Translations under genes and position numbers: made by a program
Shown here: positions 4,038-31,996 of the stretch, one piece after another
Numbering within the stretch: position 1 is the stretch's first letter
Layout of the letters: each line of letters begins with the position of its first letter
The notes under the pieces: generated by a model
Told to the model about the DNA's origin: nothing
Database searches by the model: none
What the model saw: the letters and a program-made list of their open reading frames with translations, nothing else
Assembly (NCBI GenBank): GCA_017612555.1
Contig: JAGAFR010000047.1
Coordinates: forward strand, 1 to 34,466
DNA: 34,466 bases
DNA from: Lachnospiraceae bacterium
Lineage (GTDB): Bacteria > Bacillota > Clostridia > Lachnospirales > Lachnospiraceae
Direction: 5' to 3'

Positions 4038-5087
4038 TTAACTCTTCTTAAACATATCATCAAGCTCCGATGTGAGCTTTTTAATGGTAGAAAGCACCTT
4101 GTCGTAATCCATACGCTTCGGTCCGATGATACCTATCGTTCCGTGTATGCCCTCGTCCAGCTCGTACGTTGCCGTAACAACGCTGCAATCCTTCATGTTC
4201 TCAACCGGAGCTTCTTCTCCGATGTAAACCTGTATCCCCTTCTCATCCGAATGGGACAATGTCTCATACACGATATCCGTAAGCTGCTTCTTCTCTTCAA
4301 AAGCTGTTATGATGCCTCTGGCCTTCTCGTTATCCGCAAGTTCCGGATACTTGAAGATGTTATTGGCACCGCTCGTGTATATCTCCAGATCCTCGTCTGC
4401 CTTGATCGACTCCGCTACCGCATCTATGACCTCAGCTATGATCCCTGCCTGCTCTCCGGCCTGCTGTTTCATCTTGGTGATGACTGCGAGGTTGATATCT
4501 TCTATCGCCATCCCGTTAAGAGTCGTGTTAAGGAGCATATTGAGCTTTAAGAGCGTTTCGTCATCTATAGGTTCATCTATATCTATGATCTGATTCTTGA
4601 TCATATTTCCTTCAAGAACGATAACCGCTACTATCTGCTCCGCTTCCATTCTCGACAGCTGTATAAACTTGAGACGGTTCATGTTATAGCGCGGAGCCGA
4701 TATCATTGCGGCGTAATTCGTGTTTGCCGACAGGCTCCTTGCCACCTGCTTGAGAAGGCGCTCCATCTTGTCGGCCTTTTCGATGAGAATTCCTCTCATC
4801 TCATCGGTCTCGCGTTCGCGCTCTTCAACCTGCTGTTCCTTCTCCGCCATCAGTTGGTCAACGTAGAATCTGTATCCTTTATCGGAAGGGATACGTCCGG
4901 CAGATGTATGCGGCTGGATGATATATCCCATATCAACAAGGTCTGCCATCTCGTTACGGATCGTCGCCGATGACAGGTTCAGATCCTCGATCTTGGATAT
5001 GGTCCTCGATCCTACCGGTTCTCCGGTATCAAGGTATGTCTTGATTATCGCCAGAAGTATCTTCTTTTTTCTCTCGTCCAGATCCAC
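4038..5087 (-). CDS. hrcA: Heat-inducible transcription repressor HrcA
   Basis: Repressor of class I heat-shock genes; it binds the CIRCE operator and depends on GroE for activity in related species. The 349-residue protein starts with the typical HrcA sequence DLDERKKKILLAIIKTYLDTG and winged-helix DNA-binding segment VGSRTISKIEDLNLSSATIRNEMADL. The GAF-like ligand and dimerisation region makes up the remainder, ending near the family motif GTIGIIGPKRMDYDKV. The start is GTG at 5085-5087 with AAGGAAGG upstream. The perfect CIRCE at 5109-5135 lies between promoter and start, so the gene represses its own operon. Confidence 0.98.
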   Translation of the reverse strand: MDLDERKKKILLAIIKTYLDTGEPVGSRTISKIEDLNLSSATIRNEMADLVDMGYIIQPHTSAGRIPSDKGYRFYVDQLMAEKEQQVEERERETDEMRGILIEKADKMERLLKQVARSLSANTNYAAMISAPRYNMNRLKFIQLSRMEAEQIVAVIVLEGNMIKNQIIDIDEPIDDETLLKLNMLLNTTLNGMAIEDINLAVITKMKQQAGEQAGIIAEVIDAVAESIKADEDLEIYTSGANNIFKYPELADNEKARGIITAFEEKKQLTDIVYETLSHSDEKGIQVYIGEEAPVENMKDCSVVTATYELDEGIHGTIGIIGPKRMDYDKVLSTIKKLTSELDDMFKKS

Positions 5088-5108
5088 GGGGGCCTTCCTT
5101 TCAAATTG

Positions 5109-5135
5109 TTAGCACTCGCCTCATTAGAGTGCTAA
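5109..5135 (-). promoter_or_regulatory. CIRCE operator (HrcA binding site)
   Basis: TTAGCACTC, nine bases, GAGTGCTAA: an exact match to the CIRCE consensus with the standard 9-base spacer. It lies between the predicted -10 box (5147-5152) and the hrcA GTG, so it overlaps or closely follows the transcription start of hrcA-grpE-dnaK-dnaJ. HrcA bound here would block the operon under non-stress conditions. Confidence 0.98.
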
Positions 5136-5146
5136 CATCTATACAT

Positions 5147-5175
5147 AACATACCACCGGGTTATACGCTTGTCAA
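5147..5175 (-). promoter_or_regulatory. Sigma-A promoter of the hrcA-grpE-dnaK-dnaJ operon
   Basis: On the minus strand TTGACA (5170-5175) is followed after 17 bases by TATGTT (5147-5152). The -35 hexamer and spacing are ideal. The CIRCE operator begins about 11 bases downstream of the -10 box, which fits repression at the start site. The -35 bases are part of TTGTCAA/TTGACAA and are also used by a plus-strand promoter. Confidence 0.85.
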
Positions 5176-5197
5176 TATGGAAAATGTGAAATATGAG
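5169..5197 (+). promoter_or_regulatory. Divergent plus-strand promoter sharing the hrcA -35 region
   Basis: On the plus strand TTGTCA (5169-5174) is followed after 17 bases by TATGAG (5192-5197). It predicts a transcript start near 5204, about ten bases before the first paired base of the structured element at 5214. The -35 box lies in the same TTGTCAA sequence that supplies TTGACA to the hrcA promoter on the other strand. The -10 box is not ideal. Confidence 0.55.
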
Positions 5198-5204
5198 TGA
5201 ATTG

Positions 5205-5450
5205 AGTTAACACGTCGGGCATTTCGGATAATTGCTTATGAGTGCGACCTTGGAATGAGCCTAGAACAGCTTGGGTCGTGCATATATGCAGCAAATCCGC
5301 GACCGGATGGAGCGGATAGACCGCCACCAAAAGGCACGGATGCCGGTTGGCGGTCGGTTGCGGAAATAAAGAAAATGTATCACGACCTTAGCTGTTCTTG
5401 GCGAGTGGAAACGGAGCAGAATAAGCTATTGTCCGTAATGACCGACACTT
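5205..5450 (+). ncRNA. Candidate structured non-coding RNA (rod with large central bubble)
   Basis: The sequence between hrcA and the MATE gene folds into nested stems. Closing stem: 5214-5239 with 5421-5446, 26 positions with three mismatches and one G-U. Central bubble: 5240-5262 opposite 5399-5420. Inner stem: 5263-5280 with 5381-5398, 18 positions with one mismatch and one G-U. A 9-bp stem follows (5296-5304 with 5356-5364, one G-U), then an 8-bp stem (5319-5326 with 5348-5355), and a GGCA-CGGA-TGCC tip (5333-5344). The wobbles are G-U on the plus strand and would be A-C on the minus strand, so the RNA should be plus-strand. A plus-strand promoter lies just upstream. The rod-plus-bubble outline resembles 6S RNA, but I do not recognise conserved 6S sequence. 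No obvious T-rich terminator follows. Identity is unknown. Confidence 0.6.
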
Positions 5451-5457
5451 TCAAGCC

Positions 5458-6846
5458 TTAATCAAGATTCAGTCGTTGTGAATGAGTCCTGTCAAATTTG
5501 CGTTTTACTATGACGTAGCATATGACATGCGTCAGAAATGTTACCGTCCACGAAACGGGATATGTTATGTACAGATACCGCGGTTCATGAAACATCGGCA
5601 TCCTGAAGAATGTGAAGATCCACAGAAGGCGCAGCCCGCATGCACCAACGAGCGATACTATCATTGGAAGGATCGCATATCCGAGTCCGCGAAGGGCTCC
5701 CACCATTACGTCCATCATTCCGCACAGAAAATACGGAAGGCTGACATATCCCATCCTGACGATACCTGCATCCATGACCGCCGGTGAATCGGTATAAAGG
5801 GACAGCAGTCCGTAAGAGAACAGATATGCCGATCCTCCAAGTATCATACCCGTTATGACTACACAAACTTGCGAACGGATCAGTATCCTATTGATCCTTT
5901 CATATTTGCGGGCACCCACATTGGCACTGACAAATGATATGCATGCCTGATAAAACGAGTTCATGGATACATACACGAAGCCTTCTATGTTCTGTGCCGC
6001 GGAATTACCCGCAACAACCGTCGCGCCGAATCCGTTTACCGAAGACTGGATGATCACGTTCGATATTGAAAACAGCATGCTCTGAAAGCTCGCGGGAAGT
6101 CCGATGCGGATTATCCTGAAAAGCGTATCCCTGTCTATCGACAGTTTCTTCGGATCAAGCCTTATGGATCCGCTTTCTCTCATAAGACAGCGTACCACCA
6201 GAAAAGCCGAGATGATCTGTGATATAACGGTCGCTATGGCAACTCCCGCAACATCCATATGAAATGAAATAACAAACAGGAGATTTAGTATCACATTAAC
6301 GATGCCTGCTGCCGTAAGATAATACATCGGACGTTTCGTATCCCCTACCGCACGCAGTATCGCACTTCCGAAATTGTATATCATGGACGCCGGCATTCCG
6401 AGACAGTACAGCCTGAAATACAGACTCGTCAGCTCCATCGTTTCCTCCGGCGTGTTCATGAGCACCAGTATCTTCGACGAAAAAACAATACCTACAACAG
6501 ACAGTAAGATACCGCCCAACAGGCTTACCAGCATGGAAGTATGCACTGTCCGGGCCATCTGGTTATCGTCACCGCTCCCATAGTACCTTGAGGCCAATAC
6601 ATTGCTTCCTATGGACAGTCCGATGAAAAGGCTTACCAGCAGATTTATGAGGGGTCCTACGCAGCCAACCGCCGCAAGAGAGTTGTCTCCGGCGTACTTT
6701 CCCACAACCACAACATCCGCGGCATTAAAAAGAAGCTGCAGTACTGAAGAGAGTATCAGAGGGACCGTAAAAAGAAGAAGTCTTGGGACGATCGGTCCCG
6801 AACACATATCTATTCTGTAAGATGCGGATCTTTTACCGAACAACAT
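5458..6846 (-). CDS. MATE family multidrug/metabolite efflux transporter
   Basis: Polytopic membrane antiporter predicted to export small organic compounds using a Na+ or H+ gradient. The 462-residue length is typical of the family. The N-terminus contains the usual MATE pattern: a first helix (PRLLLFTVPLILSSVLQLLF) with NAADVVVVGKYAGDNSLAAVG after it. The internal repeat recurs from about residue 250 (RIGLPASFQSMLFSISNVII). About twelve hydrophobic segments can be counted, and the tail is basic (VKRKFDRTHSQRLNLD). Its ATG overlaps the end of pncB by 14 bases, so the two are probably translated together. The substrate cannot be told from sequence. It converges on the structured RNA candidate, ending 12 bases beyond that RNA's last paired base. 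Confidence 0.93.
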   Translation of the reverse strand: MLFGKRSASYRIDMCSGPIVPRLLLFTVPLILSSVLQLLFNAADVVVVGKYAGDNSLAAVGCVGPLINLLVSLFIGLSIGSNVLASRYYGSGDDNQMARTVHTSMLVSLLGGILLSVVGIVFSSKILVLMNTPEETMELTSLYFRLYCLGMPASMIYNFGSAILRAVGDTKRPMYYLTAAGIVNVILNLLFVISFHMDVAGVAIATVISQIISAFLVVRCLMRESGSIRLDPKKLSIDRDTLFRIIRIGLPASFQSMLFSISNVIIQSSVNGFGATVVAGNSAAQNIEGFVYVSMNSFYQACISFVSANVGARKYERINRILIRSQVCVVITGMILGGSAYLFSYGLLSLYTDSPAVMDAGIVRMGYVSLPYFLCGMMDVMVGALRGLGYAILPMIVSLVGACGLRLLWIFTFFRMPMFHEPRYLYITYPVSWTVTFLTHVICYVIVKRKFDRTHSQRLNLD

Positions 6847-17524: not shown

Positions 17525-18330
17525 AGATAACGATCACAGATGATTTTGATCTTGATAAGATAATAAACTCGGGCCAGTGTTTTCGGGCAAAAAAGATCGG
17601 TGATGATACATACAGATTCGTTACCGGAGATAAAACGCTGGAGATGACCGTGGAGCCGTCCGGTTACCTGGTTTCCTGTACGAAAAAAGAATGGGATACC
17701 GTGTGGCACGACTATTTTGACCTTGATACGGATTACTGCGCCATCAGAAACAGCATCCCCGAAGATGATGATTTTCTGAAAATAGCTGCAGCGGCCGGTG
17801 CAGGTATCAGGATACTCCGGCAGGACAGGTTCGAGATGCTGATCTCTTTTATCATCTCACAGAGAAAAAGTATCCCCGCGATCAGGACAAGTGTTGAACG
17901 TATCGTGTCTCTGTACGGCCGGGACGGATTCTTTCCCACACCTGCCGCAATGGCAGCGGCGACAAGCGAAGAACTTACATCATGCGGGCTCGGGTACCGC
18001 GTTCCGTATGTTTTGAGCGCGGTAAGACGTGTATACGAACATGAAGTCGATCTTGACGCATTGGACGCCCTGTCTGATGAAGAACTCGTTAATGAGTTAA
18101 AATCATTTGCAGGGGTAGGCGATAAAGTGGCAAACTGCGTGGCGCTTTTTGCCTATCACAGATGCGCCCTTGCTCCTGTAGATACATGGATCGCAAGAGT
18201 CATAAAAGAACAGTACTGCGGCACAAACCCTTTTCCGCGTTACGGAGAATATGCAGGGATCATGCAGCAGTACATGTTTTATTATATGTCAGTCATTCAA
18301 AGATCGAATAAGCTTACAGATACTTTTTGA
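17521..18330 (+). CDS. ogg: 8-oxoguanine DNA glycosylase/AP lyase, HhH-GPD superfamily
   Basis: Base-excision repair enzyme that removes oxidised guanine and nicks the abasic site. The 269-residue protein has an OGG N-terminal domain ([10 protein letters not shown], residues 16-25) and the HhH-GPD core. The helix-hairpin-helix [17 protein letters not shown] contains the catalytic Lys202, and the catalytic Asp221 is in [11 protein letters not shown]. The 19-residue Lys-to-Asp spacing equals that of human OGG1. Translation appears to start at TTG 17521-17523, overlapping the upstream TGA (TTGA), which points to translational coupling. Its 3' end overlaps the converging metK gene by 17 bases. 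No terminator lies between them. Confidence 0.93.
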
Positions 18331-19495
18331 GAGCATCAACCTTATCAAGAGCCTCCCAGGGAAGGTTCAGATCGTTACGTCCGAAATGTCCGTATGCAGC
18401 GGTCTGCTTATAGATCGGACGGCGAAGGTTCAGCATCTTGATGATGCCCGCGGGACGAAGATCGAAGTTCTCTCTTATGATCGATACAAGCTTATCATCA
18501 GAGATCTTGCCGGTACCAAACGTATCCACCATGATCGAAGTAGGCTGAGCAACGCCGATCGCATATGAAAGCTGTATCTCACACTTGTCGGCAAGTCCTG
18601 CTGCTACTATATTCTTGGCTACATATCTGGCAGCGTATGCAGCGGAACGGTCAACCTTGGTACAATCCTTACCCGAGAAGGCACCGCCGCCGTGACGGGC
18701 ATATCCGCCATAAGTATCAACGATTATCTTACGTCCGGTAAGACCTGCATCTCCATGAGGTCCGCCGATAACAAAACGTCCGGTGGGATTGATGAAGAAC
18801 TTTGTCTTATCATCGATCAGTTCCTTCGGAAGAACGGGATCAAACACGTACTTTTTGATATCCTCATGGATCTTCTCCTGAGTCACGTCATCGTCGTGCT
18901 GTGTTGACAGAACTACCGCTTCAAGACGGATCGGCTTACCGTTCTCATCGTACTCAACCGAAACCTGGCTCTTTCCGTCAGGACGAAGGTATGAAAGTGT
19001 TCCGTCTTTTCTCACCTTGGTGAGCTGACGCGCAAGCTTGTGAGCCAGTGAGATGGGATAAGGCATGTACTCATCAGTCTCGTTTGTTGCGAAACCGAAC
19101 ATCATTCCCTGATCGCCGGCTCCCGTATCAAGATCGTCCTTGATATCTCCTTTCTTTGCCTCAAGTGCCTTATCAACACCCATTGCTATATCAGCTGACT
19201 GCTCATCGATAGCGACAAGCACAGCACATGTGTTTCCGTCAAATCCGTACTCACTCTTTGTGTAACCGATCTCCTTGACCGTATCCCTTACAACCTTCTG
19301 CATGTCAACATACGCGTTCGTCGTGATCTCACCCGTGATGAGAACAAAGCCCGTACAGCACGCCGTCTCACATGCTACACGGCTCATGGGGTCCTGCTCC
19401 ATGCACGCATCAAGGATCGCATCAGAGATCGCATCGCAAACTTTGTCGGGATGTCCTTCGGTTACCGATTCGGAAGTAAATAGAAACTTTTCCAT
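18314..19495 (-). CDS. metK: S-adenosylmethionine synthetase
   Basis: Makes S-adenosylmethionine from methionine and ATP. The 393-residue protein contains the family motifs [16 protein letters not shown] near the N-terminus, [16 protein letters not shown] and [16 protein letters not shown], plus the ATP and metal ligands expected in them. The start is ATG 19493-19495 ([14 protein letters not shown]), matching the family, with GAAAGGAGA upstream. The open frame extends upstream only into leader RNA. A SAM-I riboswitch, intrinsic terminator and sigma-A promoter precede it, so the enzyme is controlled by its own product. It converges with the DNA glycosylase gene and overlaps it by 17 bases. Confidence 0.98.
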
Positions 19496-19520
19496 TGTGG
19501 TTCTCCTTTCTGTTATCAAT

Positions 19521-19555
19521 ACAAAAGTCCGCTCATCATAGGAATAAGCGGACTC
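19521..19555 (-). terminator. Riboswitch-controlled intrinsic terminator of metK
   Basis: On the minus strand AGTCCGCT (19554-19547) pairs with AGCGGACT (19533-19526), extended inward by four further pairs including two wobbles, and is followed by TTTTGT. The 5' arm contains CTTATT (19548-19543), which is complementary to AATAAG in the 3' strand of riboswitch helix P1 (19580-19575). Without SAM, P1 would open and form this antiterminator; with SAM the terminator forms and metK is off. Confidence 0.92.
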
Positions 19556-19572
19556 AAAACTCAATTTAAATC

Positions 19573-22040: not shown

Positions 22041-22700
22041 TTATACGAGTTCTCTGATGGATTTTATCGTATCTTTATATGATCCCTTCTGACCAAACAG
22101 GAGTGTCGTTCCGAGAACAAAGCCCTTTACGCCCTTGGGTGCAAATTCGCGGATCTTCTCATCCGAGCAGGCTCCGTCCCAATATGCATCAAATCCCATT
22201 TCCTGTTGAAGAGGCAGAAGCTTATCATACTTCTTGGCAACATAAGGCAGATACATCTGTCCCGCATTTCCCGGATTGACCGACATGACGAGGACTTTCT
22301 TAACGATCTGAAGCATCTCCACTACTGTCTCAACACTTGTTCCGGGATTGATCGCAATACCCGGGATCATGCCCGCATTGATTATCTTCTGAAGTGTCGT
22401 TGACGGATGATACTCTGCTTCCGGATGGATATATACCGTATCTCCGCGTCGTAATCTTTCCAGAAAATATCCTACCGTATTGTTCGGATGTTCCACCATA
22501 AGATGAACATCGAGCGGCTTCCTGGTAGCCGATGCGATAAACGCCATATCATTAAGAGACATGGCATAATTCGGTACATAACGTCCATCCATGATGTCTA
22601 TATGAAACGAATCGATCCCCGCTTCTTCAAGATCCTTCACTTCTTTTCTGAGATTTCCGAAATCGGCGCACATCATTGATGCGCACAGTTCAATATCCAT
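22041..22700 (-). CDS. Ribulose-phosphate 3-epimerase family protein
   Basis: TIM-barrel epimerase that interconverts ribulose-5-phosphate and xylulose-5-phosphate, or a related ketose phosphate such as allulose-6-phosphate. The family motifs are SMMCADFGNLRKEV, SFHIDIMDGRYVPNYAM (metal-binding Asp), DVHLMVEHP, GIAINPGTSVE and VMSVNPGNAGQ. The 219-residue product from ATG 22698-22700 matches the usual length, and GAAAGG lies upstream. A longer form from ATG 22743-22745 would add 15 residues and overlap the upstream stop as ATGA. Being inside a sugar-activation cluster suggests it supplies a pentulose or hexulose phosphate for the dehydrogenase and cytidylyltransferase downstream rather than general pentose metabolism. 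Confidence 0.88.
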   Translation of the reverse strand: MDIELCASMMCADFGNLRKEVKDLEEAGIDSFHIDIMDGRYVPNYAMSLNDMAFIASATRKPLDVHLMVEHPNNTVGYFLERLRRGDTVYIHPEAEYHPSTTLQKIINAGMIPGIAINPGTSVETVVEMLQIVKKVLVMSVNPGNAGQMYLPYVAKKYDKLLPLQQEMGFDAYWDGACSDEKIREFAPKGVKGFVLGTTLLFGQKGSYKDTIKSIRELV

Positions 22701-22741
22701 TTTCTCAACCTTTCTGTCCTTTGCCTTTGAGGTCACCATGA

Positions 22742-23965
22742 TCATAAATCCAGGATCATGTCGGCGACTTCCCGGATAACACCTTCACCGCCCTTTGCCT
22801 TGGTCACGAGCGCAGCCACGGCTCTTATATCTGCAACCGCATCTGCCGGACAGCACCCGAATCCGACGAATTCAATGGCATCCTTATCTCCGATGTCATC
22901 ACCGATATACACAACCTCCTCGGGCTTTATCTTATATGTGGCACATAATCTGTTTATGCACGCCACTTTATCCGTACAGCCGGGAGCCAGAACATCTATC
23001 TTAAGCTTTTCACAACGCCTTTTGTTAAGTGCAACATCCTCTCCCGTGATCACACCGGTAATGATGCCTCTCTCACGAAGCAGCCGGAACGCAACACCGT
23101 CCTTCGTATTGAACTTCTTGAGCTCGTCACCCTTCTCGGAATAATACATTCCGCCGTCTGTCATGCAGCCGTCACAATCGGTGAGAAACATTTTGTACTT
23201 GGGACTGCTTTTTTCATCTGTTTCGGAAGTCTCTGCCGCCTTATCCGAAGCAGGAACCTTATCATCTGTATCCTCCGACTCGTCTCTTTTTGCCATAAGA
23301 GACTCCGTTACCGTCCAATCCGACGGCTCGTCGATCTCGTAATATGTATCCTCACTCATGAGGGATATCCTGATGTTTCCGGACAACCTGCAGCCCGTGG
23401 CAAGCAGATCCTTGCGGGACGTTATATAAAATGCACCGTTTTCGACATAGTATTCTTCAAAATCCTGACGTCTCGGCCTGTTCTTAAAATCATAGTTCTG
23501 CGGGATCGCATTGCCCTCGTTATCAAGCGCCCAGATAAACCTCTTCTGCGGAACTACGGAAAGCACGCTGTCGGTATCTTTGACAGCAAATGCGTTGAAC
23601 CCGTTGTCAAGATCGGCTCCTGTAAGCATCGGAGATGTCGCCTGTATGAGTGCGATGTTATCAAACTTATGCGCCTTGGCGAACTCGATCATCGCAGTTT
23701 CCGTAGATGCGGTATCGGTTGCGGATGCAGCGGATCTGTCGATGACTTTTACTTTTCCGAACCTGTCGTAATCCTCCGAACAGAACTTTTCAACACAGAT
23801 CTTGATATCCTTGCTGTCCGTTGCAACGAATACTTTGTCGATCGACCTGCAATCGCATGCCGCTGCAACTACCCAGTAAACAAGCGGTCTGCCGTGTATC
23901 TCTTTGATGTTTTTGAGGGGTATCGATTTGCTCCCGCCCCTGACCGGGATAAAAGCAACATTCAT
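22742..23965 (-). CDS. Acylneuraminate cytidylyltransferase fused to a KdsC-like HAD phosphatase
   Basis: Two-domain enzyme of 407 residues. Residues 1-225 are a CMP-nonulosonate synthetase (NeuA-type): the opening VAFIPVRGGSKSIPLKNIK, VFVATDSKDI, LIQATSPMLTGADLD and the FENGAFYIT-like YVENGAFYIT motif. An Asp/Glu/Ser-rich linker follows (about 226-256). Residues 257-407 are a KdsC-type HAD phosphatase with FLTDCDGCMTDGG (nucleophile Asp263, Asp265), a VITGED motif and YIGDDIGDKDAI. Such fusions dephosphorylate a nonulosonate-9-phosphate and activate the sugar with CTP. AGGAAAAAATAACA precedes the ATG. It lies three bases after neuB, so the two enzymes act in sequence. Confidence 0.92.
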   Translation of the reverse strand: MNVAFIPVRGGSKSIPLKNIKEIHGRPLVYWVVAAACDCRSIDKVFVATDSKDIKICVEKFCSEDYDRFGKVKVIDRSAASATDTASTETAMIEFAKAHKFDNIALIQATSPMLTGADLDNGFNAFAVKDTDSVLSVVPQKRFIWALDNEGNAIPQNYDFKNRPRRQDFEEYYVENGAFYITSRKDLLATGCRLSGNIRISLMSEDTYYEIDEPSDWTVTESLMAKRDESEDTDDKVPASDKAAETSETDEKSSPKYKMFLTDCDGCMTDGGMYYSEKGDELKKFNTKDGVAFRLLRERGIITGVITGEDVALNKRRCEKLKIDVLAPGCTDKVACINRLCATYKIKPEEVVYIGDDIGDKDAIEFVGFGCCPADAVADIRAVAALVTKAKGGEGVIREVADMILDL

Positions 23966-23967
23966 TG

Positions 23968-24843
23968 TTATTTTTTCCTATACTTCAATTTATCTCTCTG
24001 AACCTGCTCGATCGGAAGTATCTCGGCAGATTTATACTGAAGGGCATCTCTTGTATTCTCAAGATTTCTCTTAAGCCTTCTGATACCGTCGGGTTCAAGG
24101 GAAGCTGCATGATCCGTACCCTTAAAAGTACGATCCAGCGTATAATGGCGTTCAAATATAGAAGCTCCGAGTGTATATGCCGCAACATCTATCGCGATAC
24201 CGAGGTGATGACCGGAGAACCCGATAGCCTTAACCCTGTCCTCGTATGCTTCTCTCATCCTTGTGATCTCAAGAAGACACACATCCGCAAACGGAACCGG
24301 ATATCCGGAAGTGCAGTTGAACAGCACAAGATCCTTCGCACGCCCGCGCTCCTCAAAGAACTTCACGATCTTCTCTTCCTCTTCATGAGTCGTCATTCCG
24401 AACGACAACTGTATCTCTCCGTCATAGTTATCGCATATATAACCGAGCATATCGAAATTGGTGTTGCATGCACTCGGGATCTTGATGAACTTGGGATTGA
24501 TCGAGACTATCTCCTTGGCACTCGTCATATCCCATACAGATGTTGAATACGTGATCCCGGACTCTTCACACCACTTTTTCAGCTGTTTGTGCTTATCAAG
24601 ATCGAACTCCAGAAATTCCCTGTGCTCGCCGTATGTAGCCCCGTATGAATTGTATGGCACCGGGTGCGGCGCATTATACTGCTCCTCGGTAAGAAGTTCC
24701 TTAGGGCATCTTTTCTGAAACTTGATGGCATCAGCCTTGCAGAACATGGCCGCAGTAACAATGAGCTCGTGTGCGATATCCATGCTTCCCATATGGTTAC
24801 ATCCTGCCTCAGCTATAACGTATGGTTCTTTGTATTCGATCAT
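23968..24843 (-). CDS. neuB: N-acetylneuraminate synthase-family protein lacking the SAF domain
   Basis: Condenses phosphoenolpyruvate with an N-acetylhexosamine (or its 6-phosphate) to give sialic acid or a related nonulosonate. The NeuB TIM barrel is intact: VIAEAGCNHMGSMDIAHEL (substrate and metal contacts), KADAIKFQKR, STSVWDMTSA, KIPSAC, LSFGMTT, and GFSGHHLGIAIDVAAYTLGA followed by FERHYTLDRTFKGTDHAASL. At 291 residues it stops just after the barrel. NeuB, SpsE and related enzymes usually run to about 340 residues, with a C-terminal SAF domain that closes the active site of the partner subunit. The stop is followed at once by the next gene, so this looks like a natural short form. CGGAGG precedes the ATG. 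Confidence 0.88.
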   Translation of the reverse strand: MIEYKEPYVIAEAGCNHMGSMDIAHELIVTAAMFCKADAIKFQKRCPKELLTEEQYNAPHPVPYNSYGATYGEHREFLEFDLDKHKQLKKWCEESGITYSTSVWDMTSAKEIVSINPKFIKIPSACNTNFDMLGYICDNYDGEIQLSFGMTTHEEEEKIVKFFEERGRAKDLVLFNCTSGYPVPFADVCLLEITRMREAYEDRVKAIGFSGHHLGIAIDVAAYTLGASIFERHYTLDRTFKGTDHAASLEPDGIRRLKRNLENTRDALQYKSAEILPIEQVQRDKLKYRKK

Positions 24844-24952
24844 ATGTGCCTCCGAATATGCTTATTCCATAATAGTTTACCACAGTTTCGGGATTTTACC
24901 ACTTTTAGATCAAATTGGACGGCATAATCTGTAACAAAAAACCGGCTCTCAT

Positions 24953-25588
24953 TCATTGTATAATATCCTCCGGATAACAATGAAGCACATTTGACAGTGC
25001 CAGAACCTTGTCCACAGAAGCCTTCCGGATATCTTTATCCCCTATCTCATATTGCTGAAGTGTTCGCAGATTGACACCTGATGATTTGCTGAGTGAGGAT
25101 TGTGTCATGCCCAGCATTTTTCGATACTCCTGAAGTCTCGATACGATCGCCCGTTTTTGATATAGTTCCACGACAGAATCCACAGCCCTGTCATCCGAAG
25201 CCGTATGAAGCGCCGGATACATTCTGTACAGATCCTCGGTTTTGATCACGTTAATTATCGATCTGAACGGAATACCGGTTCTCCATTGAAACATGGCCAG
25301 TATGTATCCAACCCAGTACTGCTCATCCGTTTTATAACGAATGAGAGCTCGCGGCCATTCACGCAGGACTCCGCACTTTTCCATGATCCTGATGTACAGT
25401 TCGGTTCCCGATATACCTGCAACTACACGCGGGTCTCCGTGACCGAATCTGTCCGCATAACCGCTGATAACAAAGCATCTTAACGCATTGTCAATGTCGG
25501 CATCGCAGGCATCATGAGCATATTCCGTCATCTCTCCAAGATTACGCATGGCATCAAACAAATAAGTTTCACGAAATGCGCAGCTCAT
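24953..25588 (-). CDS. HTH (XRE) protein, probable antitoxin partner of the DUF3990 protein
   Basis: A 211-residue protein with a C-terminal Cro/CI-type helix-turn-helix (about 153-208: LQEYRKMLGMTQSSLSKSSG then VNLRTLQQYEIGDKDI). The N-terminal 100 or so residues are helical. The middle part, including DEQYWVGYILAMFQWRTGIP and DLYRMYPALHTAS, matches a pattern I associate with HTH proteins encoded beside DUF3990 genes in gut Firmicutes. The start codon lies inside the DUF3990 gene, a 20-base overlap, with AAGGAG upstream. It probably neutralises the DUF3990 protein and represses the cassette through the palindromes at 26254-26298. Antitoxin function is inferred from layout. A T6 run follows the stop, but no convincing stem. 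Confidence 0.78.
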   Translation of the reverse strand: MSCAFRETYLFDAMRNLGEMTEYAHDACDADIDNALRCFVISGYADRFGHGDPRVVAGISGTELYIRIMEKCGVLREWPRALIRYKTDEQYWVGYILAMFQWRTGIPFRSIINVIKTEDLYRMYPALHTASDDRAVDSVVELYQKRAIVSRLQEYRKMLGMTQSSLSKSSGVNLRTLQQYEIGDKDIRKASVDKVLALSNVLHCYPEDIIQ

Positions 25589-26231
25589 CTTCCGTCATCT
25601 CCTTCTCGATAATGTCCCTGGCAAATATTCCACCATTTGTCACATACTCTGTCATCTCGAAAAACATATCCCTCGCCTTGTCATCCCTGCTGATACGCTG
25701 CCTGTAGTACACGGCACCGTCAACAGGAGCCGATTCCCTGAATCTTATGATATCAAAACTCTTCGGGCTCTTAAGGCAGATCTGCATCCCTAATCCACCA
25801 AGTTCAAGCGCTGCTCTTAGCTGTTCAAGCGATATGGTATTTGACAGAAACGCCCTGGCAATGGAAAAATACGAATCATCCGCCCTAAACCCTCTGATCA
25901 GATCATATCCGGAAACATCCGGAGTGAATCTGGTTATCAAATACTCTGCTGTCCTTCGCTCTATCGGACTTGAATATCTCACGATCCTGTTAGTCAACAG
26001 CAGTGCTATCCATGAAACAACATTACCACTGTCTATCTCATACACGCTAAGCCCACTCATATCAAGATCATAAGTATTGACAAATCCCCCTTCGGGATCC
26101 TGGCATGACCATTCTTTGGCAAGTTCAATATCTTCAGTACAATAAAATCCCCGCCCATAGTCGTTATCCGGCCTTCCGTAGCCAAACAAAGGCCTCTCCA
26201 CTATTATCTTTGATCCATGATATATGATCAT
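25569..26231 (-). CDS. DUF3990 protein, probable ADP-ribosyltransferase-like toxin
   Basis: A 220-residue protein of the DUF3990 family. The N-terminus reads MIIYHGSKIIVERP, followed by DNDYGRGFYCTEDIELAKEW. The YHGS opening and GRGFYCT segment are the features that tie this family to RES and ADP-ribosyltransferase-type folds. Many members are encoded with a small or HTH partner in what look like toxin-antitoxin or defence cassettes. Here the HTH gene overlaps its 3' end by 20 bases, and a promoter covered by two palindromes lies 50 bases upstream. The ATG at 26229-26231 fits the family start. Catalytic activity and target are unknown. The cassette interrupts the run of glycan genes. Confidence 0.8.
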   Translation of the reverse strand: MIIYHGSKIIVERPLFGYGRPDNDYGRGFYCTEDIELAKEWSCQDPEGGFVNTYDLDMSGLSVYEIDSGNVVSWIALLLTNRIVRYSSPIERRTAEYLITRFTPDVSGYDLIRGFRADDSYFSIARAFLSNTISLEQLRAALELGGLGMQICLKSPKSFDIIRFRESAPVDGAVYYRQRISRDDKARDMFFEMTEYVTNGGIFARDIIEKEMTEDELRIS

Positions 26232-26253
26232 AACACACTCCCGAAACGTTATA

Positions 26254-26298
26254 GTACTTCCATAGAAGTATATATAGATTATACTTCTATGGAAGTAC
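26254..26298. repeat. Perfect 19-bp inverted repeat: paired operator of the DUF3990-HTH cassette
   Basis: GTACTTCCATAGAAGTATA (26254-26272) is repeated exactly in inverted form at 26280-26298 with a 7-base spacer. Each arm contains its own palindrome, ACTTCCATAGAAGT (26256-26269) and ACTTCTATGGAAGT (26283-26296), centred 27 bases apart. One half lies between the -35 and -10 boxes and the other near the predicted start site, so a dimeric HTH protein bound here would shut the promoter. Confidence 0.88.
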
Positions 26299-26307
26299 CG
26301 GGGTCAA
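26278..26307 (-). promoter_or_regulatory. Promoter of the DUF3990-HTH cassette
   Basis: On the minus strand TTGACC (26302-26307) and a perfect TATAAT (26278-26283) are separated by 18 bases. The spacer contains one copy of the ACTTCTATGGAAGT palindrome and the second copy lies just downstream of the -10 box. This gives the cassette its own, probably autoregulated, transcription independent of the surrounding glycan genes. Confidence 0.82.
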
Positions 26308-26353
26308 CAACATTGCCCTAAAAAACCATGTTATATATGATACCTTTTTTACT

Positions 26354-27919
26354 TTATCTATTTCCTGTCACAGAGATCACATAATTGTATGTAAGTGCCT
26401 GTGTCGTGAAGTCTTCTCCGAGCTTGTCGCTTAGGTATTCCCAGATCTCCTGCTCACTGTCAGCAGCCTCTTCGTAGCCCCTTGTTCCGGTTAGTTTTCT
26501 TATTGTAAGATTCGCGCGTTTACATATATCCGCTATTGAATCTACTGTGTAAAAATGCTTTCTGCCATGATCAAAGTGACCTCTTAGCATCGGAAGAAGG
26601 ACAGAGACGTGTATCGGATTATAGAGTCTTAAGATAAAGCATCCCTTCTCGGTAAGATTATTTGACATACTCATCAGAACATCCGCTATGTTTTCTATCT
26701 GACCGGTAATATCTCCCAGTATTATATAATCATATCTCTCGTTTCCAAGATCAAATAACCGATCCCTGTCTCTTGTCTCAATATCAACAGTAGATGACAA
26801 AACATCTGTTATGGCCCGGTTCTCTTCTACTCCCTTGATCTTCGCATGGGGATATTCATACACAGTTTTCAGGAGCGTTGCACCACATCCGCATCCTATC
26901 TCAAGTACGGAAAACTCCGCATTTTTATCTTCATCGATATGCTCTAAGATATCCATCCCGGGAGCTTTATATGAGGTAATATCAAACCCCCATTTATCAA
27001 CAAAATGCTTTCGATTGGTACTGATCAGTTTATTAAACTCATCCGCTCCTTTTTGTTTAAACCCCATCGACCCGAAATGATAGATAAAGCTGTCATGACA
27101 AAGAACACAATCGTATCCGGCCTTACGAATCCTCATGCACAGGTCATCATCTTCAAAGTTTCCAATCCCATATATCTCATCAAACAGACCTGTTTTATCA
27201 AGCACATCTCTTTTAACGAGCAGTGCAAATCCGACCAGGGAAATGACGCTTTCATAAGGATCGTCCGTCCGGGCATTATTCTTTATCCCATACTCCATCC
27301 AGCCTTCCGGGGTATCTATAGGTTCATCAACCCTTTGATAGAATGACACACTGTTTGATACACTTCCTGTCGCACCTGTCTTTCCATCGCGATACAGTCC
27401 CATTCTCAGTCGAAAGATCGAGTTGGGGAGGATGATCGTATCATTGTTCAGGAAAAAGATATCGTTATCTGCCGCTGCGATGCCGACCCCCTGATTGCTC
27501 GCCGGACCAAATCCGGCATTTTCCTTATTCCTGATCAGTTTGATATCATCCTGCTGCTCAAGCCACTCAGCGATCCCGTCCGTCGATGCATTGTCAACAA
27601 CTACGATCTCATATGAACCCACAGGAACATTCATACGTATCGATTCTATGCATCCTATCTGTGCATCCTTACTGTTATATGACGCTATCACGATCGAAAC
27701 ATTTCTGACCGATGCTCCCTGCTGTCTGAGTGCTTCCATTTTTTCGGTCAAAGCCTGTTTCTTCTCCGATGATCGTTCATAAAAACGGGCCTGCTCATAG
27801 CACAAAAAAGCCCGGTCGATATTATCATCAAGATAATAATCTCCCAGATCAGCATATGATGATGCATCGCACGGATTAACCGATAAGGCGTTCTTTATAC
27901 GATCAAGATCACTCATCAT
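26354..27919 (-). CDS. Family 2 glycosyltransferase fused to a SAM-dependent methyltransferase
   Basis: A 521-residue two-enzyme protein. Residues 1-70 resemble a short TPR-like helical segment (DASSYADLGDYYLDDNIDRA). Residues about 74-310 are a GT-A family 2 glycosyltransferase with VSIVIASYNSKD, IVVVDNASTDG, NAGFGPASNQG, the metal-binding NND motif (158-160) and GNFEDDDLCMRIRKAGYD. From about residue 328 a class I methyltransferase follows, with motif I VLEIGCGCGATLL and YDYIILGDITGQIENI. The product probably adds a sugar to the flagellar glycan and methylates it, but donor and acceptor are unknown. GGGAG precedes the start. It follows the phosphoribosyltransferase gene directly and ends the flagellin-linked block before the toxin-like cassette. 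Confidence 0.86.
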   Translation of the reverse strand: MMSDLDRIKNALSVNPCDASSYADLGDYYLDDNIDRAFLCYEQARFYERSSEKKQALTEKMEALRQQGASVRNVSIVIASYNSKDAQIGCIESIRMNVPVGSYEIVVVDNASTDGIAEWLEQQDDIKLIRNKENAGFGPASNQGVGIAAADNDIFFLNNDTIILPNSIFRLRMGLYRDGKTGATGSVSNSVSFYQRVDEPIDTPEGWMEYGIKNNARTDDPYESVISLVGFALLVKRDVLDKTGLFDEIYGIGNFEDDDLCMRIRKAGYDCVLCHDSFIYHFGSMGFKQKGADEFNKLISTNRKHFVDKWGFDITSYKAPGMDILEHIDEDKNAEFSVLEIGCGCGATLLKTVYEYPHAKIKGVEENRAITDVLSSTVDIETRDRDRLFDLGNERYDYIILGDITGQIENIADVLMSMSNNLTEKGCFILRLYNPIHVSVLLPMLRGHFDHGRKHFYTVDSIADICKRANLTIRKLTGTRGYEEAADSEQEIWEYLSDKLGEDFTTQALTYNYVISVTGNR

Positions 27920-27920
27920 T

Positions 27921-30014
27921 TTATTCTCCCGGAGTAGCCCTGACTATTGCCCTTCTGAAGTATGGCGGAGCTATTCTTTCATATTTTCCGTTAGACAAAG
28001 CCATCCTGCCGTATATAAACAGCACATATCCGTCACTTGGGTAACTATTGTATCCCACATTATCGAAAAACTCTCTGATGTCTCTTTCCTGTGATTGTGT
28101 ATGGTATACGGCTACCGAAACATGACAATGATTGTTTTTCATTGTCGTTATTGCGCCTTGCAGTGCATCCATCTCCATGCCCTCTATGTCCATCTTTATA
28201 AAAATCCGTTTGCCGCTGTATTCCGACAACAGAGAATCCAACGTTATGCAATTTCCCGAATCGATATTTCCCGCATATTTGGGTATTATATGGACTTTAT
28301 CCAGATATTCACCAAAAGTTTCATTAAGCGCTCTGATCCACTTATCCGAACACTCGATCAGGTATATCTCGGAAGATTTTTCAACGACATCAAGCGATAT
28401 CATCCCTTCCGCCGCTCCGACGTCTACAAAAATATCCCCCTCTTCGAAATCACATATGTCGTCGAAATACCTATGAGGACTCCTTTCATCCTGTTCCATT
28501 ATCAACTGATTGTATTCATGCTTTGCCAGATCATCCGAATAAGGTGGAAGATGCAGTTCATGTCCGTTATGATCAACATATTTTAAACCTGTTTCATTTG
28601 TCAGAACTTTTATCTCATCTTCGCGGTATTCTTCAGTCCACTTATAAGGATACATTTGCAGACGTCCGATACTTCTAAGATAATCCACTTCAGACTTATA
28701 CTCGTCATCATAATCATCTGACTCAAGAAGTGCTTTGTTAAGAATGCTTTGTATAAGTTCGAGTTCTTTTCTCCATGCCGCATCGGTTACCATATCAGCT
28801 GCATCTACCGTCAGTCTTGTAGTCTCCTTCAGGATCACATCCCGACACAGGCTGTCGAGTTCATCTGCCAGTTTTACACATTTTGCGTTATCTTTTTCTT
28901 CGATACTGTTCCTTAATCTTGTATACAGTTGATCTACTGCTATCACGCTATCGGAAGAATACATGCTTTCCATATCACTGATAACGGCATCCCAACTGTC
29001 TGTTAATGCACTTACCACGTTCGTATCAGCACTGCCCCCACCTATACTCATCGCCAGTATCCGAAGCTTTCCGATCACGTTCGATAACTGGTCGGCATAT
29101 TGTTCCAACGATGTCTTTGTTTCAAGATACTCATCAACACCATGGATCTCATCATAGAATTCGTTAGTTGAAACACAGTAAACAGCTTTTCCGGTAGCCT
29201 CTGCTATATACCTTGCCTGATCCGGATCCGATTCTATGAACAACTTTGTGCCGGCTATCTGATCATAGACCGACGCTTTAAAAGGTGCATGTGCCCCCAT
29301 TCGAATTCTTTCTTCTTTGGATCTGAGATTGAGCATTATCAGATGTTGATATGAAATGTTGTGTTCCGAAAGCCACTTTTCGGTATATGATCTGTATTTT
29401 TCCAGTCGACTGGTTACTATAACTCCGATAGTAAACTTGGGTGTCCAGAGGGGCTTAGCATTTAGAATGAAATCAATGTACTTCTCACCATCGTCATTCT
29501 GTTCTTCGGTCGGATCAACGCACAGCACACCATCCAGATCAAAGCATGACTGGCATATTACCGAATGATTCATGATATTCCATTCAAAGACTCTTGGAGA
29601 GGGAACAATCTCAAAGTAAATATCCACACATGAAGTTGCCTCCGGCATTACATATACACACGCATAGAGTATTTCCGTATCACAATCCGGAATTGATGCT
29701 ATTGACTCCTTGACTTCATTGATGCTCAGGCCTGTGTAACAACTGTCATCTATGACAAGGATTTTCTTATAATCCCTTATATCCGTACTGTTTTTGGAGC
29801 TTTTCAGTCTATAATCCCTGGTAGACGCTGCATGGCTCGCCCCGGATGCTATACTCATGGTATCGGTAAGCGGCAGATTTAAATATACGGCAAGAAGTGT
29901 TGCCGGCAGCATTCCGCTTCGTGGCACTCCGACGATCAGTTCAACATCACTCGGTATGAGTGAAAGCTTTTCCCTGATAACTCTATCCATGTCGCTTACA
30001 GATCTGAAATTCAT
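27921..30014 (-). CDS. Phosphoribosyltransferase-HAD-FkbM methyltransferase fusion
   Basis: About 697 residues with three catalytic domains. The first 150 are a type I phosphoribosyltransferase: LIVGVPRSGMLPATLLA and the PRPP-binding loop ILVIDDSCYTGLSI. Residues about 155-300 are a HAD phosphatase-like domain, with FDLDGVLCVDP (DxD nucleophile), IVTSRLEKYR (motif II) and KASVYDQIAGTKLFIESDPD (Lys and acidic motifs). A helical region of about 200 residues follows. The FkbM-type methyltransferase runs from about 526 to the end, with GDIFVDVGAAEGMISLDVVE and IKMDIEGMEMDALQGA. I favour ATG 30012-30014, six bases after AGAGAGGG, over ATG 30018-30020. PRT plus HAD fits transfer of phosphoribose from PRPP and removal of its phosphate, giving ribofuranose; FkbM would O-methylate. 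The role is inferred. Confidence 0.82.
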   Translation of the reverse strand: MNFRSVSDMDRVIREKLSLIPSDVELIVGVPRSGMLPATLLAVYLNLPLTDTMSIASGASHAASTRDYRLKSSKNSTDIRDYKKILVIDDSCYTGLSINEVKESIASIPDCDTEILYACVYVMPEATSCVDIYFEIVPSPRVFEWNIMNHSVICQSCFDLDGVLCVDPTEEQNDDGEKYIDFILNAKPLWTPKFTIGVIVTSRLEKYRSYTEKWLSEHNISYQHLIMLNLRSKEERIRMGAHAPFKASVYDQIAGTKLFIESDPDQARYIAEATGKAVYCVSTNEFYDEIHGVDEYLETKTSLEQYADQLSNVIGKLRILAMSIGGGSADTNVVSALTDSWDAVISDMESMYSSDSVIAVDQLYTRLRNSIEEKDNAKCVKLADELDSLCRDVILKETTRLTVDAADMVTDAAWRKELELIQSILNKALLESDDYDDEYKSEVDYLRSIGRLQMYPYKWTEEYREDEIKVLTNETGLKYVDHNGHELHLPPYSDDLAKHEYNQLIMEQDERSPHRYFDDICDFEEGDIFVDVGAAEGMISLDVVEKSSEIYLIECSDKWIRALNETFGEYLDKVHIIPKYAGNIDSGNCITLDSLLSEYSGKRIFIKMDIEGMEMDALQGAITTMKNNHCHVSVAVYHTQSQERDIREFFDNVGYNSYPSDGYVLFIYGRMALSNGKYERIAPPYFRRAIVRATPGE

Positions 30015-30037
30015 GTCCATCCCTCTCTAAAACACAT

Positions 30038-31156
30038 TTATCGGTCGTTATGGTCGCAATAATCCAAATACTTGTTATCATATATACTAAGCGCAGAGAT
30101 GTCATATTTGTAGCGGCGATTCCAACACGAATATCCCAAACTGATCTGATCTCTTGCGGTCCTGGAAAGAACTTCATTCCACCAAGTTTCCATAACCTCA
30201 TTTAATGCCTTATCATGATTGCTTCTGACAATACATCCCGAATCAACAAGCGGTTCATCATCTGCATATCCCTCAGCTCTGTATGCATCAACCTGCTCAT
30301 CAAGTTCATTTCTGACCATAGGATCAAGGCCATATCGGAATTCCTTTATCGCTGCAACTTCTTCTTCCAGCGTCTGCCTTTCGGGATGTGGAAAGCATAG
30401 CATCCCACTTCCTCTTGAGAAGATATTGATGTATTCCCTGAGATCACCTGTTATCGTAAACTTTCCATCAACGTATATTGTAAAATCATAATCCGGCAGC
30501 AACACAAACGGATGCATCTTGGCATATCGCTGTGTTCTTGTATTATCATTTTCGACGACAAATTCCAGTTTTTTTATCTTCCAAATACTCGAGCTGTATT
30601 TTTCAGGTTCGTCCGTAAAGAAGTAATAATCCAGCTCCGGATCAACGTAAAGCGGATCATGAAGTTCATCATAGCCCCCAACTATTACCGTATAAACAGC
30701 GCCCCTGCCGGAAAACACATCCGGAGCTTCATGTCCATACCGGGCAATGTATTTTTCGTTGATCCTCTCATATTTATCAAACATATGAAGATTGCTGTAC
30801 GCTTCTTCATACTTCAGTTTATAATAAACGGCACGAAAAACGGCACTGTCTTCTTTCGACCGCGCCTCATACAAGCGACAGAACTCTTCGAATTTAAAAT
30901 CATTCTCCGGAGACTCCAAATACAGAATAAACGCCACGCTTTCCGGCGAAAGTGCGTGTGCGTTGATCAGATTGGTTATTGAAGAGAGTGCTTTGTCCCT
31001 GACAGTCTTTTCGGTTCCGCTTTCAATATACCTCATCACAGAGATCAGCAACCCCAGCTTATCCAGCACTGCATTCTCATCATTTGCACCGTTAAACAAT
31101 TCACTGTGTCCGTACTCATTTTCAAGATCAAGAATATCACTGACGATCGAATTCAA
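30038..31156 (-). CDS. DUF616 (TOD1/MUCI70-like) glycosyltransferase-like protein
   Basis: A 372-residue protein. The first 140 residues are helical and not recognised. From about residue 150 it matches DUF616: AVYTVIVGGYDELHDPLYVD, LDYYFFTDEPEKYSSSIWKI, and TQRYAKMHPFVLLPDYDFTI followed by YVDGK, which takes the place of the DxD metal site. A C-terminal segment contains DSGCIVRSNHDKALNEVMETWW and DQISLGYSCWN. Plant and bacterial members are glycosyltransferase-like, but few have been characterised. The start appears to be TTG 31154-31156 with GGAG nine bases upstream, since no ATG is in frame there. It lies between GT2 and the phosphoribosyltransferase fusion, so a role in the same glycan is likely. 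Confidence 0.82.
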   Translation of the reverse strand: MNSIVSDILDLENEYGHSELFNGANDENAVLDKLGLLISVMRYIESGTEKTVRDKALSSITNLINAHALSPESVAFILYLESPENDFKFEEFCRLYEARSKEDSAVFRAVYYKLKYEEAYSNLHMFDKYERINEKYIARYGHEAPDVFSGRGAVYTVIVGGYDELHDPLYVDPELDYYFFTDEPEKYSSSIWKIKKLEFVVENDNTRTQRYAKMHPFVLLPDYDFTIYVDGKFTITGDLREYINIFSRGSGMLCFPHPERQTLEEEVAAIKEFRYGLDPMVRNELDEQVDAYRAEGYADDEPLVDSGCIVRSNHDKALNEVMETWWNEVLSRTARDQISLGYSCWNRRYKYDISALSIYDNKYLDYCDHNDR

Positions 31157-31195
31157 TTAGCGTTCTCCGTTTCCACTGTATTGATATTAAAAAGC

Positions 31196-31996
31196 CTAAG
31201 AAGATATGTACTGAAGCAGCATATTCTTAACCTGCTCCAATACTCCATCTTCGTATGCCATAACCATAATGCTTTCTACAGTATCATTAAAAGTACCGGT
31301 AGCAAGATAATCGTCCCGGTATTTTCTTAACATATAACACCTGGACAAGTAGTAACCGCTTCTGTCTGAGGTGACGGCATCTGTTGATACTGCTACATCT
31401 ACGAGTACCTCCGGTAAAAATCCTATATCTGTTTTTTGGGATATCCGTATTGCAAAATCCCAATCCACCAGATTTTTCATATTCTCATCAAAGCCCTTCA
31501 CTTCCTTAAACAGGCTTTTATCCATCAATATCGTCGGCGCACCGACAGTATTCTGATATAGCAGTTCGTCAAGCATCCGGCCTTCTTTTTTCCCATTGAC
31601 TTCCGGATCCGGAATGACCATATCATATGATAAAAAATGCTTTACATATTCTGTATACACAAATCTGCAGTTTATATGTGTCTCATAGTATTCAACCTGC
31701 TTTTGTATCTTATTTCTTCTCCATTCATCATCGCTGTCATGAAATGCTATCATGTCATACCTGGCACTTTGAACACCGATATTCCTGGCAGCAGCATTTC
31801 CCTTGTTTTCTTTCTGTTTAAGATATATGATCCTGTTGTCATTAATCCCAAGAACAACCTGTTCAGTATCATCAACTGAACCATCATCTACAACGATGAT
31901 CTCCGAAACAGGATATGTCTGTTCCATGACGCTTCTTATGGCACGTTCTATGGTACCTGCCCTGTTATAGGTTGGTATAATCACGCTTATATCCAT
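31196..31996 (-). CDS. Family 2 glycosyltransferase
   Basis: Inverting GT-A glycosyltransferase of 266 residues. The start MDISVIIPTYNRAGTIERAI, then EIIVVDDGSVDDTEQV, NKGNAAARNIGVQ, the DSDDEW motif (metal-binding DxD) and VDWDFAIRISQK give the full family 2 pattern. No membrane segment is present, so it works on a cytoplasmic acceptor. Its ATG follows the maf stop codon without a gap. With Maf and flagellin next door it probably extends the flagellin glycan; the sugar donor cannot be predicted. Confidence 0.9.
   Translation of the reverse strand: MDISVIIPTYNRAGTIERAIRSVMEQTYPVSEIIVVDDGSVDDTEQVVLGINDNRIIYLKQKENKGNAAARNIGVQSARYDMIAFHDSDDEWRRNKIQKQVEYYETHINCRFVYTEYVKHFLSYDMVIPDPEVNGKKEGRMLDELLYQNTVGAPTILMDKSLFKEVKGFDENMKNLVDWDFAIRISQKTDIGFLPEVLVDVAVSTDAVTSDRSGYYLSRCYMLRKYRDDYLATGTFNDTVESIMVMAYEDGVLEQVKNMLLQYISS

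Follow-up and report, generated by a model that had tools for sequence, protein, structure and literature searches.

The element at 5205-5450 of the window (the whole stretch of DNA analysed here, 34,466 nucleotides from a Lachnospiraceae bacterium) is a genuine structured element which is already in Rfam as TwoAYGGAY (RF01731). The TwoAYGGAY family is a dispersed repeat, and the window copy is an insertion between hrcA and a MATE transporter gene. Its copies keep GGA in the loops of two hairpins while the stems change with their pairing kept. As to what the family does, we see an about even chance that the copies are MITE-like palindromic insertions which encode, in their centre, an RNA with two GGA hairpins, and that together they titrate CsrA.

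The gap that holds the element is bordered by two genes on the minus strand: hrcA (4038-5087, PF01628, 1.2e-66), with its start towards the element, and the MATE gene (5458-6846, PF01554, 7.7e-53), with its 3' end towards it. Near the hrcA start, 5109-5135 is a CIRCE-like repeat. ORFs of at least 80 amino acids overlapping 5205-5450 were not found. A sequence-only reading of this DNA had seen no known conserved sequence in the element, had taken it for a divergent 6S RNA or an undescribed RNA, and had suggested a cmscan against Rfam. Over the whole window, cmscan gave a plus-strand match to RF01731 at 5249-5412, well above the gathering cut-off (63.8 bits, gathering 43, E 1.5e-8) and spanning the full model (1-168 of 168). 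Thus a conserved sequence is present and the RNA is described, as TwoAYGGAY. 6S RNA was rejected: RF00013 was unmatched at gathering level over the window and at E values up to 5 over 5000-5650, and the element has a junction with two GGA-loop hairpins instead of a bubbled rod. Apart from RF01731, the only gathering-level Rfam match in the window was a SAM riboswitch elsewhere, and 5000-5650 at E up to 5 yielded beyond RF01731 just a sub-threshold match to ST7-AS2_2.

The plus strand of 5195-5460 has a minimum free energy (MFE) of -112.8 kcal/mol compared with -75.1 +/- 4.6 for shuffled sequences (z -8.2; 0 of 200 shuffles as stable), so the earlier claim of pairing beyond chance is borne out. 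The minus strand also folds well (-95.2 kcal/mol, z -7.1) because the element is palindromic. Most of the helices that had been read from the letters are present in the plus-strand MFE structure, namely the closing stem P1 (5214-5239 with 5421-5446), the stem P2 (5263-5280 with 5381-5398), which is also covered by the family covariation, the bubble between them, and the helix 5319-5326/5348-5355 with its tip at 5333-5344. The 5' side of the bubble (5240-5262) has one GGA and the 3' side (5399-5420), which contains GGAAACGGAG, has two. A further proposed helix, 5296-5304/5356-5364, is absent from it; MFE and Rfam alignment instead put P3 at 5291-5294 (GCAA) with 5358-5361 (TTGC), at the base of a two-hairpin junction. 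From P3 the hairpins H1 (5295-5317) and H2 (5319-5355) emerge, each with GGA in its loop, at 5305-5307 and at 5338-5340, respectively. The continuous inner rod that had been envisaged is not borne out by the plus-strand fold; a rod-like inner part is seen in the minus-strand fold. The first observation of the structure is thus partly confirmed, and its interpretation is partly supported.

The H2 tip (GCACGGATGC) contains the loop ACGGAU, an exact AYGGAY, and the H1 loop CCGGAU keeps GGA and has C instead of A. This non-consensus H1 loop also occurs in genus relatives, and any affinity of the window copy for CsrA may be lower because of it. In the cmscan alignment the RF01731 model ends within the bubble; the sequence-only reading, which included the 26-position closing stem, thus covered more of the element than Rfam does. 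In a blastn search of 5200-5460 against the fetched loci, the best matches were L074 (180 nt, 88.9% identity) and L073 (183 nt, 86.9%, over 5236-5418), followed by L081, L082 and L076, and similarity ended near the bubble. In the subfamily of the window copy the cores are 72-90% identical and the arms 6 to 70% without consistent likeness, figures that come without a chance level; the same holds for the arm-to-arm pairing, which each copy keeps at 24-27 of 37 positions. Since the cores are alike and the arms unlike, what is conserved here spans about 5243-5421 (core and bubble, up to 89% identical in the nearest genus copies), and the closing stem is locus-specific as far as compared. The arms may have been acquired from the target, or they may have turned over with a DNA-level correction that keeps them paired.

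The genome of the window contains one TwoAYGGAY copy. In its family, at least 35 of 200 genomes are carriers, a lower bound owing to strict filters by which G193 was overlooked. Fuller scoring of 35 family genomes (34 carriers and G193, in which the element was then found), limited to 58 candidates in each, gave from 1 to at least 50 copies per genome. The highest numbers, all of them minimum values, were 50 in G143, 47 in G042, 40 in G037, 32 in G122, 31 in G086 and 23 in G176. The sequence-only reading would have counted a mobile repeat with many copies in the genome against its own claim; such a repeat is seen in the family, with its 1 to at least 50 copies in 35 related genomes, but not to the window's genome with its single copy. 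Within the genus, 9 of 37 genomes carry 1-5 copies, and in a sample of the class 36 of 391 genomes had matches, 27 of them above the cut-off. The carriers of the class sample come from 12 families, 11 of which have a match above the cut-off. The window sequence 5200-5460 was unmatched in E.coli genomes, and collections of phages and plasmids were unmatched when queried with another copy (L002). In a pattern scan of named genomes most of the matches listed look like chance; a few, in Roseburia, Acetatifactor and Lachnospiraceae, resemble real copies by name only and are included in no count.

That the window copy is an insertion is seen from nine relatives in which hrcA and MATE lie side by side and the element is missing. 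Among the 37 genus genomes hrcA was found in 34, and 30 of these loci, including the window's own, were fetched. In 9 of the 29 others (L209, L210, L211, L213, L214, L215, L217, L218 and L219) MATE lies directly upstream of hrcA and the element is absent; counted from the final MATE codon in the alignment, the gap before hrcA is about 100-170 nt there, and it is 370 nt in the window. Four of the nine were aligned, and their gap sequences are too diverged to place the borders or a target-site duplication. In L216 the MATE gene is about 1 kb off with another gene between. None of 17 other fetched genus copies lies beside hrcA or MATE. The nearest relative, G231, whose HrcA is 98% identical, has a different palindrome without an Rfam match upstream of hrcA; its contig begins 296 nt upstream of hrcA, so that MATE is beyond view. 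The G231 insert (L208:1-200) contains CTTGGAGCG and GCGGAAACG stretches that resemble the TwoAYGGAY bubble, and a 32-nt piece of it recurs in L077 and L075.

Over the 89 copies of the non-redundant set the arms range from 24 to 244 nt. In three genomes (G176, G122 and G042) the copies lie in MITE-like palindromes that have arms in common, and many of them end in GGGTGTCAAAAG-like inverted repeats; in the window copy no terminal inverted repeats could be made out by eye. The same three genomes also have shorter palindromes that end alike but lack the core. Those of G176 look by eye like internal deletions, two of them with remnants of the bubble or the core, and for this reason we no longer read the core-less palindromes as empty target sites. 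Twenty stretches at repeat-end sites of these genomes (L317-L336) were scanned for paired ends, which gave short palindromes of about 60 to 500 bp, with ends like AGATTCGGGTGTCAAAAGG, with or without a TwoAYGGAY core. One of them, L335, holds a second palindrome inside.

The copies conserve GGA in the two loops. Of 138 copies scored by alignment columns, 129 have GGA in the H1 loop, the same number have it in the H2 loop, and 125 have it in both; in the non-redundant set both loops have it in 78 of 89 copies. The 138-copy set leaves out unfetched copies and four others (L029, L078, L083 and L084) that were cut short, over-long or entered without coordinates. CANGGANG is the consensus of CsrA/RsmE sites. 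It occurs exactly in H1 of 60 and in H2 of 53 of the 89 copies, with both N positions variable; a review describes CsrA hairpins with unpaired ANGGA in the text available to us (PMC7366521). GGA outnumbers its complement TCC in 74 of 89 copies and the reverse holds in 10. On the 5' side of the bubble GGA occurs in 57 of 89 copies (controls: TCC 13, AGG 36), and on the 3' side in 51 (TCC 27, AGG 18). That GGA is kept in both loops while the stems change favours an RNA that binds CsrA. In 13 of the 138 copies GGA is missing from at least one loop, most of which read CGA. They belong to seven genomes (five copies in G008, two each in G022 and G166, one each in G086, G096, G115 and G170), all of which have csrA. 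Copies without GGA in csrA genomes either count against a role in CsrA binding or are decayed copies, and those with CGA loops provide a natural test of the need for GGA. In G008 (L301, L303, L304) and G022 (L308, L310), CGA replaces GGA in one or both loops.

The sequence-only reading had looked to homologues with compensatory changes, and these were found: in an alignment of 70 copies, both partners have changed at 24 of 26 predicted pairs. The covariation rests on those 70; the alignment omits 19 of the 89 copies (L025-L028, L030, L033, L040, L269, L280-L283 and L308-L314), among them two G022 copies and one G166 copy without a GGA loop. As far as conservation and covariation go, the designation as a structured RNA is backed. 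Within single genomes, H1 stems deviate from the genome consensus at 254 nucleotides, 94 of them in G042; both partners are changed in 119 pairs, and 29 of 658 pairs are broken. This count covers 11 genomes and the 94 copies with an identified GGA loop, and it took the best-paired register, which favours pairing. Since pairing is kept in diverged copies of the same genome, H1 is maintained instead of decaying.

G-U pairs were compared with A-C, their counterpart on the other strand, in a test run without a known-RNA positive control. In H1 (offsets 1-7) 10 G-U and 2 A-C cells were counted in 138 copies (binomial 0.04), but the non-redundant copies gave only 6 and 2. For H2, over offsets 1-10, there were 9 and 20, and 5 and 13 among non-redundant copies, most of them from offsets 9-10, at which the register is uncertain. 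In the window copy the wobbles do favour the plus strand, in line with the earlier statement (5 versus 2 pairs), but across the family the outer stems are unbiased: arms and P2 together have 454 G-U and 468 A-C in 138 copies, 264 and 310 in 89. With no G-U bias in the outer stems, and fewer G-U than A-C cells in H2, pairing may be maintained in the DNA itself, so that covariation does not prove an RNA. For palindromic repeats in general this is a caution that covariation in outer stems may reflect upkeep of the DNA.

The plus strand folds better than the minus strand in 64 of 89 copies. A promoter just upstream of the element had been claimed; the sequence TTGTCA-17-TATGAG exists on the plus strand at 5169-5197, where it overlaps the hrcA promoter region, but as a sigma-70-like candidate it is weak (score 6.3). 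Within 230 nt upstream the best promoter score was 7.0 for the window copy and 8.3 on average for 86 of the 89 copies, and neither sigma-A nor sigma-28 sites were enriched upstream of the copies. The orientation of the neighbouring genes is about random: among 85 copies for which a simple ORF caller called both neighbours, 29 had both genes in the direction of the element, 23 had both against it, 21 had convergent genes and 12 had divergent ones. In the window both neighbours are encoded on the strand opposite to the conserved one. The flank test started from 85 of the 89 copies and was made with 69 after removal of copies in close pairs. The 5' flank was longer than the 3' flank in 47 and shorter in 21 of them (medians 201 versus 114 bp); separated by the gene end that faces the copy, the medians were 209 versus 90 and 199 versus 149. 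Among the matches listed, a hand count of close pairs (less than 600 bp apart) gave at least nine divergent pairs, at least four of them in one genome (G086), at least two tandem pairs and no convergent pair. The longer 5' flanks and the divergent pairs look as if the copies were units with room for an upstream promoter.

TwoAYGGAY co-occurs with csrA and with flagellin. Of the 200 genomes in the family sample, 108 had csrA above the cut-off; it was present in 34 of 35 carriers compared with 74 of 165 others (Fisher 2e-9, no phylogenetic correction); the carrier without detected csrA is G168. In the class sample, which has several genomes in common with the family sample, 125 of 391 genomes have csrA, among them 31 of 36 carriers compared with 94 of 355 others (Fisher 2e-12) and 23 of 27 carriers above the RNA cut-off (Fisher 5e-9), both again without phylogenetic correction. 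The class carriers without detected csrA are G411, G452, G491, G509 and G551, three of which are less than 90% complete. All 12 carrier families are among the 37 families with csrA, out of at least 86 (1e-5, counted from the listings). The genome of the window has csrA (G000:C19:38292-38450, 7.6e-24). Flagellin (PF00669) was found in 110 of 200 genomes, in all 35 carriers and, by hand comparison, in 107 of the 108 csrA genomes. Since csrA and flagellin nearly coincide, CsrA is not separable from motility and the link may be to motility. The presence of csrA in 34 of 35 and 31 of 36 carriers favours a CsrA-binding RNA.

Weinberg is reportedly an author of the 2010 paper listing TwoAYGGAY, and Gardner is said to be an author of the 2014 proposal that it binds CsrA. 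The table of the former (PMC2864571) rates TwoAYGGAY as "probably" an RNA and "probably not" cis-regulatory, and gives its occurrence as human gut, gamma-Proteobacteria and Clostridiales. The latter (PMC4333381), in the part available to us, proposes TwoAYGGAY as a CsrA-binding sRNA from motif matches and states that CsrA-binding sRNAs have been identified only in Gammaproteobacteria. From the accessible portions of later work, a 2025 preprint (PMC11661157) describes the two TwoAYGGAY loops as differing in stability, and in two other papers (PMC7657543, PMC11701678) the annotated helix is extended by covariation or given extra covarying pairs. The Rfam clan CL00106 holds RF01731 and another family. 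The available parts of the papers naming the family contain no mention of a dispersed repeat, and searches for CsrA sRNAs in these bacteria, for Roseburia MITEs and for CsrA together with transposable elements returned nothing relevant beyond papers on CsrA and FliW. We found no earlier report of the mobile, copy-rich character of TwoAYGGAY; new are its dispersal, the insertion evidenced by empty sites, an outer stem peculiar to the locus, and the figures for the link to csrA and flagellin. An orphan Rfam family thereby gains a testable context of csrA-bearing flagellated lineages, palindromic insertions and two GGA loops.

The likeliest interpretation is that the plus strand is transcribed and that a CsrA dimer binds both GGA hairpins of the RNA, the bubble of which would often bring further GGA triplets. 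Jointly the copies would form a decoy that diverts CsrA from the mRNAs it controls, in such bacteria probably those for flagellin and metabolism, and the arms would serve the spread of the element or the stability of its DNA. If this is true, RNAs control CsrA outside the Gammaproteobacteria as well, and here they come from a mobile repeat. More tentatively, and with some doubt on our side, a transposon-like family could be spreading an RNA sponge in flagellated Clostridia, with transposition tuning the dose of the antagonism. To our knowledge, no RNA antagonist of CsrA was known in Firmicutes before; such a mobile decoy, if real, would be the first, and its sponge gene would multiply in the manner of a mobile element. 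The decoy would act alongside FliW, a protein antagonist of CsrA that, in the text available to us, is known in B.subtilis and inferred in C.difficile (PMC8523840).

Several features of the copies would also suit a non-coding DNA palindrome, that is a MITE whose hairpin is used for transposition or tolerated and whose RNA is incidental. The palindromic arms vary from 24 to 244 nt, G176, G042 and G122 have GGGTGTCAAAAG-like terminal repeats and core-less palindromes, orientation is unbiased, promoters are not enriched, the outer stems show no G-U bias, and in H2 there are fewer G-U than A-C cells. Yet a mere palindrome would not be expected to keep its GGA loops while stems and loop N positions change, even within one genome, to be enriched in GGA on one strand, to fold better as the plus strand in 64 of 89 copies, or to be linked to csrA and flagellin genomes; we therefore regard this explanation as unlikely, though it deserves to be taken seriously. 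The loop conservation with free stems would also fit hairpins that act as single-stranded DNA, with their GGA loops contacted by a recombinase or an HUH-type transposase in the way of REP sequences and IS200/IS605 ends. Close inverted pairs in one orientation only, among the matches listed, point the same way. This would leave the csrA link unexplained, and the symmetric terminal repeats of the TwoAYGGAY palindromes are unlike IS200/IS605 elements; we consider it very improbable.

A third type of explanation puts the function into the transcripts of the host, where a very stable hairpin in intergenic gaps could be a terminator, an insulator or a stability element; in the window it separates MATE from the hrcA promoter. 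Such a cis-acting role is hard to reconcile with the about random orientation of neighbours at 85 copies and with a conserved strand antisense to both neighbours in the window, and appears quite improbable. For a divergent 6S RNA there is the outline, a long hairpin with a bubble, and against it stand the failure to match even at E up to 5, the strong match to another family and the many dispersed copies in relatives, which make it next to inconceivable.

Compared with the Rfam family itself, the window element agrees in its full-length match, in the two-GGA-hairpin junction and in the exact AYGGAY of H2. It differs in the H1 loop CCGGAU and in a structure that runs beyond the model through the bubble into a locus-specific stem of 26 positions, and the family differs from the earlier picture in being a dispersed repeat, with high copy numbers in some genomes. 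With 6S RNA (RF00013) the element has in common a rod with a bubble in outline, whereas the match is missing and a two-hairpin junction is present. ERIC, REP and RUP are known palindromic repeats or MITEs of bacteria. Like MITEs, TwoAYGGAY is short, non-coding, palindromic and dispersed and has terminal inverted repeats and shortened derivatives (G176, G122, G042); unlike them it has a conserved asymmetric, RNA-like centre, and arms which differ between genomes and, in the window's genus, between copies. CsrB, CsrC, RsmX, RsmY and RsmZ have many CsrA sites per RNA, whereas TwoAYGGAY has two strong predicted sites per copy and many copies in some genomes. The window matches none of their Rfam families. 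Several GGA in hairpin loops and unpaired stretches are a common trait (compare the ANGGA hairpins in the available text of PMC7366521), but unlike the hosts of the CsrB/RsmZ type, those of TwoAYGGAY are related to bacteria with FliW as CsrA antagonist, according to the part of PMC8523840 at hand.

Elsewhere in the window, the SAM riboswitch (RF00162, 19573-19668, minus strand, 69.9 bits) lies ahead of a gene at 18314-19564 on the same strand, which we take to be metK. At 24956-26231 (minus strand) a DUF3990 protein is encoded beside a helix-turn-helix protein, a pair that we assume is perhaps toxin-antitoxin-like. The minus-strand region 22041-33874 encodes NeuB, a cytidylyltransferase/HAD fusion and an MptE-like protein (PF01973); together with genes that we read as glycosyltransferase-like, it may be a flagellin glycosylation island.
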